A stretch of 64,000 nucleotides of DNA from Myxococcales bacterium (GCA_021806645.1 JAJZQX010000001.1:310001-374000); one strand, 5' to 3'; shown: positions 13,370-22,514, numbered from the stretch's first letter. Program-made: numbers and translations. The notes: a model not told the origin generated them from the letters alone.

Positions 13370-13909
13370 GTGCGGCGCATCGAGGTGGCCGAGCTCTCGC
13401 TGGCAACCCTCGACGCCCTCGACGTCGAGGCGCTGGCGCTCCTGATCGGTGACGAGCGGCCGCTCCAGGGGCTCCCCGGGCTGGTGGACTGGCGCCTGGC
13501 GGGGGCGCTCACCAGGACCCTCCTCGACGGGCTCTACGCGGCCGGTCCGGGCGAGGCCCTGCTCCTGTCCACCGCCGGGCGGCTCCCGGCGGCGCGGGTG
13601 GTGGCGGTCGGCCTGGCGGCGGAGCGCGGCGAGGCCGAGTTCGCCACGGTGGTGGGCCGGCTCTGCGAGGTGGTGGCACGGGCCGGGGCGCCCTCGTTCG
13701 CCACCGCCGCCCTGCCCTTCAAGGGGGTGACCAGCGCCGAGGCCTGCCGGGCCTGGCTCCGGGCCGCGGCGGCGGTCCCGGGCGACCGGCTGGTGCTGCT
13801 GGGCGATCCTCGCGCCCTGGCGGCCGATCTCGCCGGCGCCCGCCTCGAGGCGCGGAGCGAGATCGAGGTGGCGCCTTTCTCAGCTTCGCCGCCGGCGATG
13901 GTACGATGA
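13370..13909 (+). CDS. Small protein resembling the N-terminal domain of M17 leucyl aminopeptidases
   Basis: A 179-residue protein starting with GTG five bases after the nusB stop. The pattern of an early acidic strand, then GALTRTLLDGLYAAGPGEALLLSTAGRLPAARVVAVGL, looks like the macro-like N-terminal domain of M17 leucyl aminopeptidases. The C-terminal catalytic domain and its metal ligands are absent, so it is not a peptidase. It precedes cheA by 31 bases. Function unknown; the family resemblance is by eye only. Confidence 0.6.
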   Translation: MRRIEVAELSLATLDALDVEALALLIGDERPLQGLPGLVDWRLAGALTRTLLDGLYAAGPGEALLLSTAGRLPAARVVAVGLAAERGEAEFATVVGRLCEVVARAGAPSFATAALPFKGVTSAEACRAWLRAAAAVPGDRLVLLGDPRALAADLAGARLEARSEIEVAPFSASPPAMVR

Positions 13910-13940: not shown

Positions 13941-16070
13941 ATGGCCGACCGATCGCAGAAGGCGCTCTCCGACTTCGTCTCCGAGGCCCAGGAGACCGTC
14001 GACGCCCTTGCCAAGGGGCTGATGCGGCTGGAGGAGGCGGGCGCGGAGTCCGATCCCGAGCTCCTCAACTCCGTCTTCCGCGCCGCCCATTCGCTCAAGG
14101 GACTGGCGTCGATGTTCGGCGTGGAGCGGCTGGCACGCCTGGCCCACGCGCTGGAGGACGCCCTCGACGACCTGCGCATGGGGCGGCGGCCGCTGGACGT
14201 CGTCGTGCTCGACCTGCTGCTGGAGGCCCCCGAGATCTTCTCCCGCATCATCTCGGACGAGTCGACCGGCGCGCCGCACGCCAATCACGACCAGGCCGCG
14301 CGGCTCACCGAACGGCTCCGCGCCGCGGAGCACGCTGTGGCGGTCAGGGGAGACGATCCGCTCGACACCGTGGCGCTCGGCCCGGAGGTGCGGCGGCTCC
14401 TCACCGAGTACGAGGAGCACCGGCTCGGTTCCGCGCTGCGCAAGGGGCTGGCGCTCTACAGGGTCAGGGTGGCCTTCGAGCTGACCGCCTTCGACGAGCA
14501 GCTGGCGGCGCTATCGGCCAGGCTCAAGGACCTGGGCGAGGTGGTCTCGACGCTGCCGTCGGCCGACATGCAGGATCCCTCCACCATCGCCTTCGAGCTG
14601 CTGCTGGCCACCTCGGCGCCGCGCGCCAGCGTGGTGCTGGAGGCCGGCCCCCACGCCGGCGTCGACGTGGTCGCGGCGCTGGCGGCCGGGGCACCCGGCG
14701 CGGTGGCACCCCACCCCGCCGCCCAGAAGCGGGCGCCGCTCCCCAGGCCGGCCGAGGAGGTCATGGCCCCCCGCGAGGAGCCCGCCTCCGGCGCGGCCCT
14801 GGCGCTCTCGCCAACCCCCGAACCGCTCGTCGAACTGGACACCGGCACCCTCCGTTCGGCCTCTCAAGCCGTTCGTGTCGACATCCGCAAGCTCGACCGG
14901 CTCATGAACGTGGTGGGCGAGCTGGTGCTGGTGAAGAGCTCACTGCAGTCGATCTCGGAGCGGTTCAAGGGCGACGGGATCGACGCCGGGCTGGCGGCCG
15001 AGTTGCGCCAGGCCAGCCGCTCGCTGGACCGTAAGCTGGGCGAACTCCAGGGCGGGATCCTCGAGGTCCGGATGGTCCCGCTCGATCAGGTCTTCGACAA
15101 GCTGACCCGCATGGTGCGCAAGCTGGCCCGCGAGGTGGGGAAGGAGATCGAGCTGGAGGTCTCCGGCGGTGAGGTGGAGCTCGACAAGCTGATCGTCGAG
15201 GACCTCTCGGATCCGCTGATGCACCTCGTCCGCAACGCCATCGACCACGCCATCGAGACCCCCGAGGTGCGCGAACGGATGGGGAAGCCGCGTGCCGGCC
15301 GCATCACGCTCTCCGCGGTCCAGCGCGGCCACCACGTGCGCCTCTCGGTCACCGATGACGGCAATGGCATCGACGAGGACCGGATCCGGGAAGTCGCGGT
15401 GAGCCGCGGGCTGGCCACCGCCGAGTCGGTGAAGGGGCTCACCCGCAGGGAGGTGATGAACCTGATCTTCGTGCCCGGCTTCTCGACGGCGCGCCAGGTG
15501 ACCAGCCTCTCCGGGCGGGGCGTCGGCATGGACGTGGTGAAGAACAACATCGCCGCGCTCTCCGGCATCATCGACCTGCACACCGAGCGTGGGGTCGGGA
15601 CCAGCTTCGAGGTCACCTTGCCGGTCACGCTGGCCATCATCCGGGTGCTGGTGGTCAAGGCCTCGGGGCGCACCTACGCGGTGCCACTCAACAGCGTGCT
15701 GGAGATCCTCGAGGTGCGGGACGCCGACATCCGGAGCGTCTCGACGCGCGAGGCGATCACGCTGCGCGGGAGCACGCTGCCGATCACCCGCCTGAGCCGC
15801 TTCTTCGCCGCGGAGGAGCTGGCGCCGCCGGACCCGCTCTTCGTGGTGGTGACGGGCCTGGCGCAGGAGCGGCTCGGCCTGGCGGTGGACGAGTTGCTCG
15901 GGCAGCAGGACATCGTGGTCAAGCCGCTCGGCAGCCTGCTGGCGGGCGTTCGCGGCATCGCCGGCGCGACCGACCTCGGGCGGCGGACCACCGTGCTGGT
16001 GCTCGACGTGGGGGCCATCATCGAGGACGTGGTCGCCGGCGACCCGCTGCCCGAGGCGGTGGGGCAATAA
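13941..16070 (+). CDS. cheA: Chemotaxis-type histidine kinase CheA
   Basis: A 709-residue CheA, the central kinase of a chemosensory array. The HPt domain has the phosphorylated H50 in AAHSLKGLASMFG. A P2-like region (about 150-255) and a proline/alanine-rich linker follow. Then come the dimerisation helices (VDIRKLDRLMNVVGELV), the HATPase core with the N-box HLVRNAIDHAIE and the G-box GVGMDVVK, and a C-terminal CheW-like regulatory domain (about 570-705). There is no receiver domain at the C-terminus. It heads an operon with an AAA ATPase, two CheW, a HEAT protein, CheR and CheB, but no receptor or CheY. An alternative cellular function is therefore as likely as flagellar or pilus taxis. 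Confidence 0.95.
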   Translation: MADRSQKALSDFVSEAQETVDALAKGLMRLEEAGAESDPELLNSVFRAAHSLKGLASMFGVERLARLAHALEDALDDLRMGRRPLDVVVLDLLLEAPEIFSRIISDESTGAPHANHDQAARLTERLRAAEHAVAVRGDDPLDTVALGPEVRRLLTEYEEHRLGSALRKGLALYRVRVAFELTAFDEQLAALSARLKDLGEVVSTLPSADMQDPSTIAFELLLATSAPRASVVLEAGPHAGVDVVAALAAGAPGAVAPHPAAQKRAPLPRPAEEVMAPREEPASGAALALSPTPEPLVELDTGTLRSASQAVRVDIRKLDRLMNVVGELVLVKSSLQSISERFKGDGIDAGLAAELRQASRSLDRKLGELQGGILEVRMVPLDQVFDKLTRMVRKLAREVGKEIELEVSGGEVELDKLIVEDLSDPLMHLVRNAIDHAIETPEVRERMGKPRAGRITLSAVQRGHHVRLSVTDDGNGIDEDRIREVAVSRGLATAESVKGLTRREVMNLIFVPGFSTARQVTSLSGRGVGMDVVKNNIAALSGIIDLHTERGVGTSFEVTLPVTLAIIRVLVVKASGRTYAVPLNSVLEILEVRDADIRSVSTREAITLRGSTLPITRLSRFFAAEELAPPDPLFVVVTGLAQERLGLAVDELLGQQDIVVKPLGSLLAGVRGIAGATDLGRRTTVLVLDVGAIIEDVVAGDPLPEAVGQ

Positions 16071-16073
16071 GGC

Positions 16074-16898
16074 ATGTACCTCGAGTTCTACGGGCTGGAG
16101 CGACGCCCCTTCTCCAAGACCCCCGACCCGGCCTTCCTCTACCTGTCGCGGCAGCACGCCGAGGCCCTGGCGCGCCTCTCGCACGCGGTGGAGGAGCGCG
16201 AGATCGCCGTGCTCACTGGCGAGATCGGCGCCGGCAAGACCACGCTCTCGCGGGCCCTGGTGGACGAGTTCGCCGAGCGCTGCCGCTTCAGCTTCGTCGT
16301 CAACCCGGCGCTGCCCGCGGCGCAGCTGCTCTCGTCCATCGCCGAGGGATTCGGCTTGCCCGCCGCCCGGAAGAAGAGCGAGACCTGGTCGGCGCTGGCG
16401 AACCACCTCGAGACCCTCGACGAGGCGGGCCAGTTTCCGGTGGTGGTGATCGACGAGGCGCAGTTGCTGGCCGGCCGAGCCGCCTGGGATGAGCTGCGGC
16501 TCCTCACCAACCTGACCGCCGACGATCGGCCGCTGGTCGGGCTCGTGCTGATCGGCCAGCCCGAGCTGCGCGAGCGGCTGCGGACGCAAGGCGGCGAGCC
16601 GTTCGCGCAACGGGTCGGGGTGGCGTACCACGTCGGCGCGCTGGACGAGTCCGAGGTCGGTGACTACCTGGCGCACCGGCTGGCGGTGGCGGGCCGGTCG
16701 TCGCCGCTCTTCACCCGCGACGCCGTGGCCGCGCTCCACCGCCGCTCCGGAGGCCTTCCCCGGCGCGTCAACCAGCTGGCGGCCAGCGCGCTGCTCGAAG
16801 GGTTCGCGCGGGACGCCGCGCGCATCGACGCCGCGGTCGTCGACGCGGTGGCCGAGGATCTCCGCGTCCATATGGGAAGCCCGGGGGCGGCGGAGTAG
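16074..16898 (+). CDS. ExeA/GspA-type AAA ATPase within the che operon
   Basis: A 274-residue AAA protein starting MYLEFYGLERRPFSKTPDP, the signature opening of the ExeA/GspA/MshM ATPase family. Walker A is GEIGAGKTT (about residues 48-56) and Walker B is VVVIDEAQLL; the RRVNQLA segment near the end is the usual sensor-2 region. Relatives couple ATP hydrolysis to assembly of secretion or surface polymer systems at peptidoglycan. It lacks the periplasmic peptidoglycan-binding part of ExeA and has no membrane segment, so it should be cytoplasmic. It lies 3 bases after cheA and 16 bases before the first cheW, an unusual position for this family. Confidence 0.88.
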   Translation: MYLEFYGLERRPFSKTPDPAFLYLSRQHAEALARLSHAVEEREIAVLTGEIGAGKTTLSRALVDEFAERCRFSFVVNPALPAAQLLSSIAEGFGLPAARKKSETWSALANHLETLDEAGQFPVVVIDEAQLLAGRAAWDELRLLTNLTADDRPLVGLVLIGQPELRERLRTQGGEPFAQRVGVAYHVGALDESEVGDYLAHRLAVAGRSSPLFTRDAVAALHRRSGGLPRRVNQLAASALLEGFARDAARIDAAVVDAVAEDLRVHMGSPGAAE

Positions 16899-16914
16899 GA
16901 TTCCCCGCGGGCTC

Positions 16915-17874
16915 ATGGACTTCCTGAAGATCAGGCGCAAGGCGAAGGAGCGGGCGGCCAAGACCGCCGCGGCGGCCCGGCGCGCGCCGGCGGTCGAGGC
17001 CGGGCCGGAGACCGGGCCGGGCGGCCGAGCCGTGGCCGACGCCAGGCCGTTGGAGGCCGCCAGCACCGCATCGCCGGAGGCCGGCGGGGTCCCCCCGCCG
17101 GCCGGGCCGTCTCGCCCGGTACGGCATCCGGCCGGGAGCCCCGAGGCGATGCGGCTGGAAGCCGAGCTCGGCTCGCGGGTGTCCGCGCTGCCCCACTCGG
17201 CGGACTCCAGGTTCGTGACATGGCGACCCGACGGCGGCGGTCTTCCGGAGCTGGCGGCCATCCGACCCGTCGAGGACGACCGGCCGGCGCTGGTCCGCGA
17301 AGGGGCGTGGCCACTGGCTCCACTCGCGCCTCTCGACGACTTCTTCTACCGGGAGGACGAGGCGGCGCCGGACCCGGGGCAGGGCGCGCCGCTCGCGATC
17401 GGCGCCACGACCTTCGCGCCCGTGGCGCTGGAGGAGTACCTGATCTTCCGGCTGGCCGGTGAGTCGTACGGTGTCGACATCGGGCGGGTGCTGGAGGTGC
17501 TGCGAACGCCGCCGATCACCGAGGTGCCGAGGGCGCCCGCCGACGTCCGGGGCGTCATCTCGGTGCGCGGCGAGGTCGTCACGGTGATCGATCCGCGGGG
17601 CCGGCTCGGGCTGGTCCGCGCCGAGGGTCCGCCGGCGGGGCGGGTGGTGATCGTGGATGACGGTGGAGGGGCGTGCGGCCTGCTGGTCGAGCGGGTGACC
17701 GGCGTCGTCAGGCTGCCACGCGGTGCCCTGGAGCCGTGTCCGCAGGCCCTCGGGAGCGCCGGTGGCGACCTGTACCTCGGCATCGGGCGGGAGCGCGACC
17801 GGCTCTTCCTGGTGCTCGACACGCGGGCCCTGCTCCGGCCGCTGCGACGGGCGGCGGAGGCGAGGTCCGGATGA
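16915..17874 (+). CDS. CheW-domain protein with long N-terminal extension
   Basis: A 319-residue protein with a basic, alanine/proline-rich N-terminal half (about residues 1-165) and a C-terminal CheW domain (about 175-310: EEYLIFRLAGESYGVDI, then IRGVISVRGEVVTVIDPRG-like strands). CheW couples receptors to CheA. The N-terminus MDFLKIRRKAKERAAK could be an amphipathic helix. The ATG has no Shine-Dalgarno sequence; TAGGAT (16896-16901), containing the stop of the ATPase gene, lies 13 bases before it. The stop overlaps the ATG of the second CheW. Confidence 0.9.
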   Translation: MDFLKIRRKAKERAAKTAAAARRAPAVEAGPETGPGGRAVADARPLEAASTASPEAGGVPPPAGPSRPVRHPAGSPEAMRLEAELGSRVSALPHSADSRFVTWRPDGGGLPELAAIRPVEDDRPALVREGAWPLAPLAPLDDFFYREDEAAPDPGQGAPLAIGATTFAPVALEEYLIFRLAGESYGVDIGRVLEVLRTPPITEVPRAPADVRGVISVRGEVVTVIDPRGRLGLVRAEGPPAGRVVIVDDGGGACGLLVERVTGVVRLPRGALEPCPQALGSAGGDLYLGIGRERDRLFLVLDTRALLRPLRRAAEARSG

Positions 17875-18428
17875 AGTCGCTCCCGGCACGGCCGGCGGCG
17901 ACCGCCACCGAGGGGACCGAGGTGCAACTCTGCACCTTCCGGGTCGCGGGCGAGCACTTCGCCGTCGACATCATGCGGGTCCGGGAAATCATCCCGCCGG
18001 CTCCGCTCACCGCCATACCCGAAGCACCGAGGTACGTGGCCGGCGTGTTCCGGCTCCGCGGAGACGTGGTGCCGGTGGTGGACCTGAGCCGGCGGCTCGG
18101 GCTGCCGCCGGGCGAACCGACGCGCCAGGCCAAGTACGTGGTGGTCAAGGTGGCCGGACGGCTGCTCGGCCTCATGGTGGACGAGGTCTGCGAGGTTCTC
18201 CGGCTCGCCCGGGATGAGCTGCGGCCCGCCCCGGCGGCGATCGACGCGAAGGGCGCCCGGCTCTTTCTCGGGGTCTGCGACGGCGAGCGGGGAACGGTCC
18301 GTGGTGGACGGCGCGGCGGGGCGGGCCGGCTTCGGCTACTGCTCAACGTGAAGGCCCTGCTCGATCCGGTGCCCGGCGACGGCGCGGAGCTGGCCCAGGC
18401 GCTCCTCGAGTCCGCGAGGGAGCCGTGA
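17871..18428 (+). CDS. cheW: CheW coupling protein
   Basis: A 185-residue CheW of ordinary build. The domain begins at EVQLCTFRVAGEHFAVDIMRV (about residue 20) and contains FRLRGDVVPVVDLSRRLGL and a C-terminal strand around LLLNVKALLDP. It overlaps the preceding CheW gene by 4 bases (ATGA) and the HEAT-repeat gene by 4 bases (GTGA). Two CheW proteins in one operon may serve different arrays or different positions in one array. Confidence 0.93.
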   Translation: MKSLPARPAATATEGTEVQLCTFRVAGEHFAVDIMRVREIIPPAPLTAIPEAPRYVAGVFRLRGDVVPVVDLSRRLGLPPGEPTRQAKYVVVKVAGRLLGLMVDEVCEVLRLARDELRPAPAAIDAKGARLFLGVCDGERGTVRGGRRGGAGRLRLLLNVKALLDPVPGDGAELAQALLESAREP

Positions 18429-20530
18429 CCGGAGAGACCACGCCGCTGGCGCGGGCGCGCCTCCCCGACGAGGAGACCCGGTACCAGGCGGTCCTCCAGC
18501 TCGACGGCGCGGTGACGGAAGAGCTGACCGAGCTGCTGGACCGGCTCTCCGACTCGAGCTGGCGCGTCCGCTCCGCCGCGGTGGAGCGGCTGGCGGCCCT
18601 CGCCGAGCCGGGCGCCGCGCTCCCGCGGCTGATCGACCTGCTCGACGGGGCCGAGACCATCGCCGGCCGTGCCGCGGCGGAGGCGGCGTTGGCAGGTCTC
18701 GGCGCGGCCGCCCTGCCGGCCCTCCTGGTGCGGCTGGCTTCGTCCAGCGGCGAGCGGCGGCTCTCGGCCATAGCGGCGGTCGGTGCCATCGGCAGCCGCC
18801 GGGCCGTCCCGGCCCTGGTGGCCTGCCTGGCGGAGCCGGACCCGGCCCTGCGCGCCGCGGCCGCCGAGGCGCTCGGCAAGCTCGGTGGCCCCGAGGCGGT
18901 CGGCGCGCTGCTGGCCGCGCTCGACTCCGACGACGTCACGCTGCGGGCCACGGCGCTCGACGCACTCGGGGTGCTCCAGGTCTCCCCGCCGGTGACGCGG
19001 GTCGCCGTGCTGATGGCCGAGCCGGGGCTGCGCCCGGGCGCCTACCGGGCCCTGGCCGCGAGCGACGAGCCCGCGGCGCTGGAACTGCTCGGGGGCGGGC
19101 TGTCGGAGCGTGGGCGATCGGCTCGGCTGGCGGCCCTGGCCTCCATCGGCTCGCAGCGAGCCCGGCGTCCGCGCGAGGCGCTGGCCCCCATCGCCGCGGG
19201 GGTCCGCCGGGTCGCCACCGGGGAGCCGGGCGTGGCCGAGGGGTGCGTGGCCGAGCTGGACTCGCGTGAACCGCAGGTGGCCGAGGGCGCGCTGCTGGTG
19301 CTGTCCTGGATCGGCGAGCTCACCCATGCGCCCGCCGTGGCCCGGAAGGCGACAGACGACCGGCTGCGCCCGCTCGTGGAGCAGGCGCTGGAGGCGCTCC
19401 CCAGCGGCGCCGGGTTGGTGGAGGCCTTGGGCCGGATCTTGCCGAGCCTGACGCCGGTGGCGCGGGTGGCCACCTTCGTGGCGCTGGCCCGGGCTGGCGA
19501 GGCCTCGGCGTTGCAGGCGCTGCTGGAGGGGGCCGCCGATCCCGATCCACTGGTCCAGGCGGAGACCATCGAGGCGCTGGGGCGGCTGGGCCATCCGGCC
19601 GGCGCCCCGGTGCTCGGTGGACTGCTCCACCACGGCTCGCGCTCGGTGGCCGGCCTGGCGGCCGAGGCGCTGGTCCGGATCGGGTCGGGCTCCGGTGACG
19701 CTCGGCGAGCGGTCCTGCTCGAGTGCCGGGCCCGCGCCGCCGCCGGCGGCTCGGCCGCGCTCTACCGCGTGCTGGGCGGCTGCGGCGAGGCGGAGGACCT
19801 GCGGCTGGTCCGGCTCGGCCTCTCCGATGGGGCCGCGGAGCGACGGGTGGCGGCCGCTGCCGCGGTGGCCGCGCTGGGGCAGCGGGGGCTGCTGCGCGGT
19901 GAACATGTCCCGGAGTTGATCGCGGCGCTGTCCGACCCGGCCTGGCCGGTCCGGGTCGCGGCCGCCCGCGCCTTCACCGACCTGGCAGAGGCCAACTTCG
20001 GAGCCCGGGGTGGCGACCCCGAGGCGGGCGAGCACCCGCTCTGCTCGCTCGCCATGGGCGGTCTTCGGACCGCGCTCGACGACCCCGAGGCGACGGTTCG
20101 TGCGGCGGCGGTCGAGGCGCTCGGGGCCTGCGGTCGGTCGGAGCACCAGCCGGCCATCGCAGCGCTGGTGCGGGATGGCTCGACCCCGGCCCAGGTGGTG
20201 GTGGCGGCGCTCCGTGCGCTGGCGGGGCTCGGCCTCCCAGAGCATGGGCTGCTGCGCTGGGCGCTGGCCCACCCCGATCCGGAAGTGACCAAGGCGGTGG
20301 TGGCCGCGGCCGTCCAGGTGCCGGGGGAGGAGGGGCGCGAGCTGCTGCGGGCCGCCCTGTCGAACCAGCGTTGGGACGTGAGGCTGGCGGCGGCCCACGC
20401 CATCGCCGAGCGCGGCGACGCGGCTTTGCGGGACGAGGCGGAGCGGGCGGCGACGGCCGAGCCCGATCCGCTGGTGGCTCGCGCTCTGGCCGACGCGGCG
20501 CTCGCCCTGTCCGGAGGCCACGGGCGCTGA
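18425..20530 (+). CDS. HEAT-repeat protein of the chemosensory operon
   Basis: A 701-residue, alanine- and leucine-rich protein built almost entirely of HEAT/PBS-lyase-type helical repeats of about 30 residues (for example WRVRSAAVERLAAL, RAAAAEALGKLGG, VRAAAVEALGACG, WDVRLAAAHAIAERG). No signal peptide or membrane segment is visible, so it is probably a cytoplasmic scaffold. It starts with GTG overlapping the second CheW stop, and cheR begins directly after its stop. HEAT proteins have been noted in some myxobacterial chemosensory operons. Its ligand is unknown. Confidence 0.88.
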   Translation: MTGETTPLARARLPDEETRYQAVLQLDGAVTEELTELLDRLSDSSWRVRSAAVERLAALAEPGAALPRLIDLLDGAETIAGRAAAEAALAGLGAAALPALLVRLASSSGERRLSAIAAVGAIGSRRAVPALVACLAEPDPALRAAAAEALGKLGGPEAVGALLAALDSDDVTLRATALDALGVLQVSPPVTRVAVLMAEPGLRPGAYRALAASDEPAALELLGGGLSERGRSARLAALASIGSQRARRPREALAPIAAGVRRVATGEPGVAEGCVAELDSREPQVAEGALLVLSWIGELTHAPAVARKATDDRLRPLVEQALEALPSGAGLVEALGRILPSLTPVARVATFVALARAGEASALQALLEGAADPDPLVQAETIEALGRLGHPAGAPVLGGLLHHGSRSVAGLAAEALVRIGSGSGDARRAVLLECRARAAAGGSAALYRVLGGCGEAEDLRLVRLGLSDGAAERRVAAAAAVAALGQRGLLRGEHVPELIAALSDPAWPVRVAAARAFTDLAEANFGARGGDPEAGEHPLCSLAMGGLRTALDDPEATVRAAAVEALGACGRSEHQPAIAALVRDGSTPAQVVVAALRALAGLGLPEHGLLRWALAHPDPEVTKAVVAAAVQVPGEEGRELLRAALSNQRWDVRLAAAHAIAERGDAALRDEAERAATAEPDPLVARALADAALALSGGHGR

Positions 20531-21391
20531 ATGCACGGCTCGCGATCACGGCCGGTCCTGCCCGAGGCGACCTTCCGTCTCCTGCGCGAGTCGTTCCACG
20601 ACCGGTTCGGCCTCTGGTTCGGCGACGATCTGCGTTTCCTGCTGGAGCTGCGCCTCGGGCCGCGACTGGCCCTCCACGGGCTGCACGACTTCGGCGCCTA
20701 CCAGCGCTTCCTGCGGCTCGATCCCCGCGGGCCGTCGGAGCTCTTCGACGCGGCCGAGGTGCTCACCACCAACGAGACCTACTTCTACCGGGAGCCGGAG
20801 CAGCTTCGCGTCTTCGAGCGGGACATCCTCCCGGCGCTGGAGCGGGACCGCGGCGGCCCGCGGCGGCTGCGGCTGCTCTCCGCCGGCTGTGCCACCGGCG
20901 AGGAGGCCTACACCCTGGCGGCGCTGCTGCTCGGCTCGGGGCGCTTCGAAGGCTGGGAACTCGAGGTGCACGGCGTCGACCTCTCCCGCCGCTGCCTGGC
21001 CCGGGCGCTGGCCGGCGCCTACGGGGAGCACGCCTTCCGCAGCGCCGAGGGGCAGGCGCTCCGGCACTGGTTTCACCTGGAGGAGGGGCGCTGGGTGGTC
21101 GGCGACGCGCTCCGGCGCATGGTCCACTTCGGCGCCGCCAACCTGCTCGACGGCGAGGGGTTGCCACGGGCCCCCATCGACGTGATCTTCTGCCGAAACG
21201 TGCTGCTCTATTTCGACCCCCCGGCCCGGCGGCAGGTGCTGCGCCACCTCCACGCCAGGCTGGGGGAGGGCGGCTGGCTGCTCCTCGGCCACGCCGAGTC
21301 GCTCCTGCAGCTCAGCGCCGACTTCGAGTCGGTCCACCTGGAGCGGGAGCTGATCTTCCGGAAGCCCCGAGCCTCGGCCGGAGCCCCGTGA
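20531..21391 (+). CDS. cheR: Chemoreceptor methyltransferase CheR
   Basis: A 286-residue CheR that methylates receptor glutamates with S-adenosylmethionine. The N-terminal all-helical domain (about 1-75) is followed by TNETYFYREPEQ and the SAM-binding LLSAGCATGEEAYTLA, then DVIFCRNVLLYF. There is no C-terminal pentapeptide-binding TPR domain. The ATG abuts the HEAT gene stop. No receptor gene is nearby, so its substrate must be encoded elsewhere. Confidence 0.95.
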   Translation: MHGSRSRPVLPEATFRLLRESFHDRFGLWFGDDLRFLLELRLGPRLALHGLHDFGAYQRFLRLDPRGPSELFDAAEVLTTNETYFYREPEQLRVFERDILPALERDRGGPRRLRLLSAGCATGEEAYTLAALLLGSGRFEGWELEVHGVDLSRRCLARALAGAYGEHAFRSAEGQALRHWFHLEEGRWVVGDALRRMVHFGAANLLDGEGLPRAPIDVIFCRNVLLYFDPPARRQVLRHLHARLGEGGWLLLGHAESLLQLSADFESVHLERELIFRKPRASAGAP

Positions 21392-22449
21392 GAGGGCCGC
21401 CCTCGCCGGGCCGGCTCCGGTTCCTGCTGGTCGACGACTCGGCGCTCGTCCTCGGCGAGCTGCGGCGTTTGCTGGAGTCCTCCGGCGACTTCGAGGTGGT
21501 GGGGAACGCCCGGGATGGCGAGCAGGCCCTGCGCGAGGTGATGGCGCTGCGTCCGGACGCCGTCATCCTCGACCTGCAGATGCCGCGCATGGACGGCTTC
21601 ACCTTCCTGCGCTTGCTCATGGCGCGGCGGCCCACGCCGGTGATCGTCCTCTCGTCCAACTCCCGCCGGGCCGACGTCTTCAAGACGCTCGAGCTGGGCG
21701 CCCTCGATTTCGTGGCCAAGCCCGAGTTGGGAAGCCTCGAGTCGATCCGGGAGGAGTTGCTGGCCAAGTGCGGGGTGATCCGGGGGCTGCGCATCGAGAA
21801 GCTGGCCGCCTCCTCGCGGCCCGACCACGAACCGGCCGACCCACGGCCGCAGGTGGAGCCGGCGCGGCTGGCGGTCATCGGCGCCTCGACCGGGGGGCCG
21901 CAGGCGCTGCATGAGGTGCTGGGGGCGCTGCCCGGCGACCTGCCGCTCGGTGTGCTGGTGGCGCAGCACATGCCGGAGAAGTTCACCCGCGCCTTCGCCG
22001 AGAGGCTGGGACGCACCTCGGCCTTCACGGTGGCCGAAGCGTCCGACGGGGACCTGGTGGCGGCGGGGCGGGTGCTCATCGCGCCGGGCGGGCAGCACCT
22101 CGAGCTGCGGCGGGAGCGGGGGACCGGGACGCTCCGGGTGACGCTGGCGCCGCCCGAGGCTGGAGGCTACTCGGCCCATTACTGCCCCAGCATCGATCGG
22201 CTCTTCACCTCGGCGGCGCTGGCCATGCCGCGGCGGCTCTGCGCCGTGGTGCTCACCGGCATGGGGAACGACGGCGCGGCCGGCGTGCGGGCCGTCAAGG
22301 CGGCCGGCGGGCTGACCCTCGCCGAGTCGGAGCTGACGGCCGTGATCTACGGGATGCCGCGGGCGGCCGTGGCCACCGGGATGGTGGACCAGTCGATGGG
22401 ACTCTCCGAGATCGCCCCCCGTCTCGCCGCCTTCGCAAGGGACGGATAG
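21388..22449 (+). CDS. cheB: Chemotaxis response regulator / methylesterase CheB
   Basis: A 353-residue CheB that removes methyl or amide groups from receptors. The receiver (about 10-125) has DD16-17 and the phospho-acceptor D62 in ILDLQMP. The esterase domain (about 160-350) has the triad S167 (IGASTGGPQ), H194 (AQHMPEKF) and D295 (GMGNDGAAG). GTG at 21388 overlaps the cheR stop. It is the last gene of the chemosensory operon and is convergent with asnS. Confidence 0.95.
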   Translation: MRGPPSPGRLRFLLVDDSALVLGELRRLLESSGDFEVVGNARDGEQALREVMALRPDAVILDLQMPRMDGFTFLRLLMARRPTPVIVLSSNSRRADVFKTLELGALDFVAKPELGSLESIREELLAKCGVIRGLRIEKLAASSRPDHEPADPRPQVEPARLAVIGASTGGPQALHEVLGALPGDLPLGVLVAQHMPEKFTRAFAERLGRTSAFTVAEASDGDLVAAGRVLIAPGGQHLELRRERGTGTLRVTLAPPEAGGYSAHYCPSIDRLFTSAALAMPRRLCAVVLTGMGNDGAAGVRAVKAAGGLTLAESELTAVIYGMPRAAVATGMVDQSMGLSEIAPRLAAFARDG

Positions 22450-22471
22450 GAGGCCTCTACCCATCTTGCGG

Positions 22472-22495
22472 CGGCGCCACCAGAAGCCGGCGCCG
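22472..22495. terminator. Hairpin in the convergent cheB/asnS gap
   Basis: Inverted repeat CGGCGCC / GGCGCCG with 7-bp arms and a 10-base loop, in the 65-base gap between the convergent cheB and asnS genes. It could end transcription from both sides. No T-run, as is common in GC-rich genomes. Confidence 0.4.
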
Positions 22496-22514
22496 TCGCG
22501 ATTTAGCGGCGCTG

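Follow-up and report, generated by a model that had tools for sequence, protein, structure and literature searches.

The Che8 cluster of Myxococcus xanthus (MXAN_4751-4759) encodes CheA8 (MXAN_4758), CheW8a, CheW8b, CheR8, CheB8, CheY8a, and CheY8b (PMC3945109), and che8 is reported to be syntenic in Anaeromyxobacter dehalogenans 2CP-C and Geobacter sulfurreducens (PMC2330069). Che8 is a chemosensory system of the "alternative-function" type, and the orphan regulator MXAN_4468 mediates an effect of CheA8 on groESL expression (PMC9040617). The Esn locus of Geobacter consists of esnC (GSU2222, CheA), GSU2221 (an "ATPase"), and esnB (GSU2220, CheW), with an unlinked receptor, EsnA (GSU1704); the electrode Tn-Seq scores of GSU2222, GSU2221, and GSU2220 are -2.8, -2.1, and -2.4, and insertions in the ATPase gene reduce growth on electrodes similarly to insertions in the CheA and CheW genes (PMC5585712). 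In the ATPase gene, insertions could have a polar effect on the cheW that lies downstream. The Esn genes probably correspond to the reported che8 of G. sulfurreducens, and the proposed output of Esn is a diguanylate cyclase (EsnD-type). In Vibrio, ParP binds ParC by an N-terminal domain, which a long proline-rich linker joins to a CheW-like domain (PMC5706961), and its partner ParC is, like Rhodobacter PpfA (with TlpT), a ParA-type (deviant Walker) ATPase.

Here, we analysed a chemosensory operon in a window of 64,000 nucleotides (JAJZQX010000001.1:310001-374000) from the draft genome (4.14 Mb, 33 contigs) of a Myxococcales bacterium (GCA_021806645.1). The operon shares with M. xanthus Che8 a CheA8, two CheWs, a HEAT-repeat protein, a TPR-less CheR, a CheB, the lack of a linked MCP, and the genomic site; it differs in having an ATPase gene after cheA and a CheW1 with a tail and long linker, and in missing both CheY genes. 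The CheA-ATPase-CheW order and a receptor encoded elsewhere are shared with Geobacter Esn, GSU2221 being compared by its published annotation. As in Vibrio ParC/ParP, an ATPase gene adjoins a CheW-like protein with an N-terminal extension and a proline-rich linker, features read here from sequence; however, ParC is of the ParA type, whereas the ATPase in the window is an AAA+ protein, and the likeness is therefore an analogy and not membership.

The operon and its genomic site

An earlier note made from the sequence had described the order cheA-ATPase-cheW1-cheW2-HEAT-cheR-cheB, and all seven genes were recovered with the expected domains in Pfam searches (Table 1). The intergenic gaps from cheA through cheB are +3, +16, -4, -4, 0, and -4 bases, and the same order occurs in many genomes, indicating that the operon is a genuine unit and ruling out a chance arrangement. 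By motif reading, the Hpt histidine of CheA lies within AHSLKG (residues 49-54).

Table 1. Features of the operon and its flanks, in window coordinates
Feature	Position	Strand	Basis
Peptidase_M17_N-like protein (M17N), 179 aa, upstream neighbour	13370..13909	+	Pfam weak here (E 0.0054), clear for a Myxococcaceae orthologue (1e-16)
cheA (CheA8 orthologue)	13941..16070	+	Pfam Hpt, H-kinase_dim, HATPase_c, CheW; CheA tree
Soluble AAA+ ATPase (AAA_22, ExeA/MuB-like), 274 aa	16074..16898	+	Pfam AAA_22; Walker motifs
cheW1, whole gene	16915..17874	+	Pfam CheW domain at residues 174-308
CheW1 N-terminal tail MDFLKIRRKAKERAAKTA, candidate ATPase-docking motif	16915..16968	+	CheW1 alignment; pattern searches
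CheW1 Pro/Ala-rich linker, then PLDDFFYREDE segment	16969..17433	+	CheW1 alignment
CheW1 CheW domain; gene adjoins cheA or ATPase, like cheW8b of M. xanthus	17434..17874	+	Pfam 6.1e-31
cheW2, 185 aa, in the position of M. xanthus cheW8a	17871..18428	+	Pfam 1.4e-36
HEAT-repeat alpha-solenoid, 701 aa, 42 helices	18425..20530	+	Pfam; AlphaFold2 pLDDT 90.7
cheR, 286 aa, without TPR domain	20531..21391	+	Pfam 3.6e-46
cheB, 353 aa, receiver and methylesterase domains	21388..22449	+	Pfam; GASTGG, GMGNDG motifs
cheY8a site of relatives, gene absent here	22450..22514	.	Neighbourhood comparison

In a tree of CheA proteins from 38 Che8 loci and outgroups, the CheA in the window fell inside the Che8 proteins, whose clades follow the host families. 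The window also has the cheW-cheW-HEAT-cheR-cheB core order of Che8. The site of the cluster, ribBA-ribH-nusB-M17N ... asnS-leuS, was the same in Anaeromyxobacteraceae relatives according to gene calling, Myxococcaceae also keep its upstream side, and other families show some of the synteny. In view of the published Che8 gene lists and synteny reports, the operon, as judged from its sequence, is the already known but little studied myxobacterial Che8 cluster, syntenic in A. dehalogenans, M. xanthus, and G. sulfurreducens (PMC2330069), and not the undescribed system that the earlier note had suspected. The equation with the che8 of the cited papers is based on gene content, gene order, and the CheA tree, the M. 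xanthus relatives among the loci being assigned by gene content. Che8-type CheA was found in 125 of 195 Myxococcota genomes.

The upstream neighbour M17N is similar to M17 leucine aminopeptidases over their N-terminal domain and lacks the catalytic one. Its gene starts 4 bases after nusB and ends 31 bases before cheA, and it is possibly co-transcribed with the che genes; many Che8 loci have it in this place, between nusB and the che cluster. At the sites without che8 in two family members (G008 and G020; L192 and L193), nusB and M17N are retained, with asnS directly after M17N in L193 and other genes between them in L192. Che8 is thus dispensable and, since M17N stays where che8 is absent, M17N is not a part of it.

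The AAA+ ATPase and the CheW1 tail

The product of the gene after cheA matched Pfam AAA_22 with 80.7 bits (cut-off 27) and carries a Walker A (GEIGAGKTT) and a Walker B (VVVIDEAQ) motif, both conserved among its orthologues. An AAA_22 domain above the cut-off is shared with ExeA/GspA and XrtA/PEP-CTERM-associated ATPases, and the Walker A and B motifs are shared with ExeA/GspA. In contrast to ExeA/GspA, the protein has no membrane helix (highest 19-residue hydropathy, 1.29), and a Pfam search of its 274 residues found no peptidoglycan-binding domain, C-terminal or other. The NCBIfam model TIGR03015, which is linked to exopolysaccharide/PEP-CTERM (XrtA) systems, scored 220, below its cut-off of 324.5. 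The closest solved folds were archaeal ORC2, MuB, RuvB, and TnsC; ORC, MuB, TnsC, and RuvB are proteins acting on DNA.

Orthologues of the ATPase were found in 13 of the 195 genomes, namely, nine of the window's own family and G025, G182, G184, and G185 (317-526 bits with the A1 profile), and the next matches to the profile were paralogues with 225 bits or less. The Che8 ATPases group into a single clade that excludes the paralogues. In these 13 genomes, which belong to several families, the gene stands beside cheA, and the doubt that it might not be conserved there in relatives has thus been removed; a recent insertion private to one strain is likewise ruled out. The ATPase is an optional part of Che8, and 112 of the 125 genomes with a Che8-type CheA do without it, although absences in other draft genomes may be assembly gaps. 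In G021 (L194/L195), a contig break lies within the cheW1 linker of the locus, so draft assemblies can lose the cheW1 stretch and absence calls need care; this genome has HEAT-cheR-cheB-cheY and was neither counted as Che8-less nor included in the ATPase counts. A paralogous AAA_22 ATPase occurs in the window's own genome (L095:7616-8536, contig C13), flanked by the genes of a TPR and a TamB-like protein, with efp and a gene for biotin carboxylase close by, and its relatives occur across the order. Planctomycete paralogues (L110, L112) have a basic C-terminal tail of about D/E-F-x-F-K/R-A-x-E-R (alignment A3), a faint likeness to the CheW1 tail that may be due to chance.

The earlier note had given one of the CheW proteins an extension of 165 residues; with the CheW domain at residues 174-308, CheW1 indeed has approximately 170 additional N-terminal residues. 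In the alignment, CheW1 of the ATPase-bearing loci starts with MDFLxIR[K/R]xA (MDFQ in one). The linker that follows aligns poorly and, in the window, is approximately 37% Ala + Pro. The PLDDFFYREDE segment is also kept in ATPase-less relatives. The tail motif was taken from the Anaeromyxobacteraceae sequences of the alignment, and loci read later, which served as a test, also carry it: MDFLEIRKRA in L074 and, in distant families, VDILKIRKKG in L140, MDILSIRKKA in L141, and MDILSVRRKA in L142, for which the regular expression was loosened at one position (Val admitted). Across the ATPase-bearing genomes, CheW1 thus starts with MD[F/I]LxIRKxA (start Met or Val), and then the linker follows. The earlier note had passed over this conserved start, as it had the M17N gene upstream of cheA.

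The tail and the ATPase are inherited together in the sequences compared. The motif was present in 13/13 ATPase-bearing loci, whereas it was found in 0/25 of the ATPase-less Che8 loci examined. When the family was searched with a DNA pattern, the tail occurred once in each of the nine ATPase-bearing genomes, at the start of cheW1, and in none of the 15 others. Among all 195 genomes, each of the 12 ATG-starting matches was a cheW1 adjoining the ATPase gene. With the loosened pattern and GTG starts, cheW1 was matched in 13/13 ATPase-bearing genomes; seven other genomes had matches elsewhere, all GTG-starting, and in those with a listed Che8 cheA the match lay over 2 Mb from it or on a different contig. 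On the CheA tree, the ATPase trait changes at least four times and the tail agrees in four of four independent pairs (p = 0.125; with four pairs, p < 0.05 is out of reach). One family (f25) contains both states, with ATPase and tail in G184 and G185 versus neither in G183.

This pattern bears on the idea that the ATPase gene is a neutral passenger of an otherwise ordinary Che8. That 112 of the 125 Che8 genomes manage without the ATPase agrees with such a passenger, but we consider it highly improbable: the gene is kept between cheA and cheW1 with intact Walker motifs in 13 genomes of several families, it is gained or lost jointly with the tail, and the same-position ATPase of Geobacter has a fitness effect (PMC5585712).

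What the tail binds can be read in two ways. It is basic (Arg/Lys-rich) with hydrophobic residues, amphipathic-looking, short, and N-terminal, and it is predicted to be helical: when an ATPase-plus-tail chain from L102 was folded by AlphaFold2, a helix was modelled at residues 283-304 (block-mean pLDDT 72-86; the chain is a natural read-through in which the ATPase stop TAG was read as Ser as a mere tether, and the model was judged by pLDDT). These properties would also suit a membrane-binding amphipathic helix, and the tail could bind the membrane instead of the ATPase, with both serving a membrane-associated array and no mutual binding. We regard this as distinctly unlikely, because Met-Asp-Phe/Ile-Leu-x-Ile-Arg-Lys is conserved in families whose linkers cannot be aligned, and conservation this specific to sequence is more readily explained by a binding epitope than by amphipathicity in general. 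Docking of the ATPase on the array through the CheW1 tail is, by analogy with ParC and ParP, the reading that we infer.

The ATPase might alternatively be an output or regulatory enzyme that is recruited via CheW1 and has a different target, for example an envelope machine, a polymer machine, or, as for MuB/TnsC-like proteins, DNA. The AAA_22 family, the below-threshold TIGR03015 match with its exopolysaccharide/PEP-CTERM link, and the DNA-acting nearest folds, which also count against an array function, are in keeping with this, as are the matrix and electrode-biofilm phenotypes of Geobacter Esn and cluster 5 (PMC2577667, PMC5585712). However, the protein has no membrane segment or peptidoglycan domain, no secretin, pilus, or polymer gene adjoins it, the genome has a separate paralogue of the family between TPR and TamB-like genes, and the sole co-inherited partner found is the CheW1 tail. 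An output enzyme therefore seems unlikely, and the link to assembly of an envelope machine, which the earlier note had suggested, finds no support here and was rejected as the lead reading.

Adaptation genes, receptors, and CheY

The HEAT protein, modelled by AlphaFold2 as a continuous solenoid, had been taken for a scaffold; the comparisons instead identify it as an ordinary Che8 component tied to CheR. In nearly all Che8 loci its gene separates cheW2 from cheR; in five loci (L075, L083, L140, L141, and L145) it forms a single ORF with cheR, and in L073 and L159 it is absent jointly with cheR and cheB. Because it is fused to CheR in some loci and lost with cheR and cheB in others, HEAT belongs to the adaptation module, and HEAT, CheR, and CheB are core parts of Che8. 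By analogy with CheR-TPR fusions (PMC3447774), the HEAT protein is probably a companion of CheR, with a function like that of the TPR parts in those fusions, and not a scaffold for the ATPase. As a partner of the ATPase it was rejected: most Che8 loci keep HEAT without the ATPase, and G004 keeps the ATPase without HEAT. The reduced locus of G004 (L073) reads cheA-ATPase-cheW-cheW-cheY, without HEAT, cheR, and cheB, and from this gene content adaptation seems to be dispensable with the ATPase retained.

No MCP gene was found in the operon or elsewhere on its contig; the 10 MCP genes of the genome are all on other contigs, and the earlier note was right that the receptors must be encoded elsewhere. 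A cluster without an MCP is normal for Che8, and Corallococcus Che8 has no associated MCP (PMC6194562). In a search across 24 family genomes, no sensor region of the seven orphan MCPs tracked Che8 strictly. In distant Myxococcota families, a GAF-domain protein of approximately 274 aa follows cheB (L140:15947-16771; L141:15792-16613); a GAF domain is also present in the Geobacter Esn receptor, and the Pfam results for the 10 MCPs of the host genome contained none.

Beside the operon there is no single-domain CheY gene: asnS ends 65 bases past cheB, no convincing cheY remnant was found after cheB, and the best CheY matches genome-wide are approximately 38-41% identical. A single-domain cheY follows cheB in the Anaeromyxobacteraceae loci L068, L069, L071, L072, and L076 and follows cheW2 in L073, and Myxococcaceae have one further cheY upstream of cheA. 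Such genes at one or both edges of Che8 are accessory and differ among lineages, and neither edge has one here. The earlier note had allowed that an MCP and a CheY might flank the cluster in other strains and have been lost here; this proved right for CheY, which flanks the cluster in Myxococcaceae and in those Anaeromyxobacteraceae relatives whose sequence was read as far as this end, and wrong for the MCP, which normally lies outside the Che8 cluster. Since orthology, site, and core order all agree with Che8, the missing CheY represents, on this sequence comparison, the local loss of an accessory gene of the cluster. In two Myxococcaceae loci (L077:185-2691; L078:1-2396), the genes next after cheY8a encode an ABC transporter ATPase and a membrane protein resembling ABC_export, possibly part of the Che8 output there.

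A proposed two-module model and its meaning

We propose a model of two modules, with the ATPase docked on the CheW1 tail and handling the array and HEAT acting with CheR, and we hold it as a whole with moderate confidence. The first module would be the array core, made up of CheA, CheW2, and CheW1 with the AAA+ ATPase docked on the MDFLxIRK tail. With the CheW domain built into the lattice, the flexible Pro/Ala-rich linker would leave an ATPase oligomer room outside it. ATP turnover may then assemble, remodel, or position the array, as ParC does via ParP but with an unrelated ATPase. In the second module, CheR and CheB would serve adaptation on unlinked receptors, and the HEAT solenoid may hold or regulate CheR. 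CheA would pass its output to CheB and, given the loss of the CheY of the cluster itself, to response regulators encoded at other loci.

The ATPase-plus-tail Che8 is a variant of a known system, in which the co-inheritance of tail and ATPase and the HEAT-CheR fusions appear to be new; we found no description of either in the openly readable literature. More speculatively, and with some doubt on our part, an AAA+ ATPase of the ExeA/MuB type with a CheW tail would be a second, unrelated way of ATPase-driven array positioning or remodelling. In the Che8/Esn systems of Myxococcota, and possibly in those of Geobacter, it would be ancestral or repeatedly exchanged, and electrode-biofilm signalling in Geobacter would require it.

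Che8 is present in most of the Myxococcota genomes searched, and its function is almost unknown, one paper having reported control of groESL (PMC9040617). The 18-residue tail peptide and its presumed ATPase partner provide a specific and easily tested handle on array organisation in this system, and the link between them gives the unexplained "ATPase" of the Geobacter electrode-sensing locus a possible interpretation. The HEAT-CheR fusions, in turn, suggest that the unexplained HEAT protein has a role as a CheR partner.
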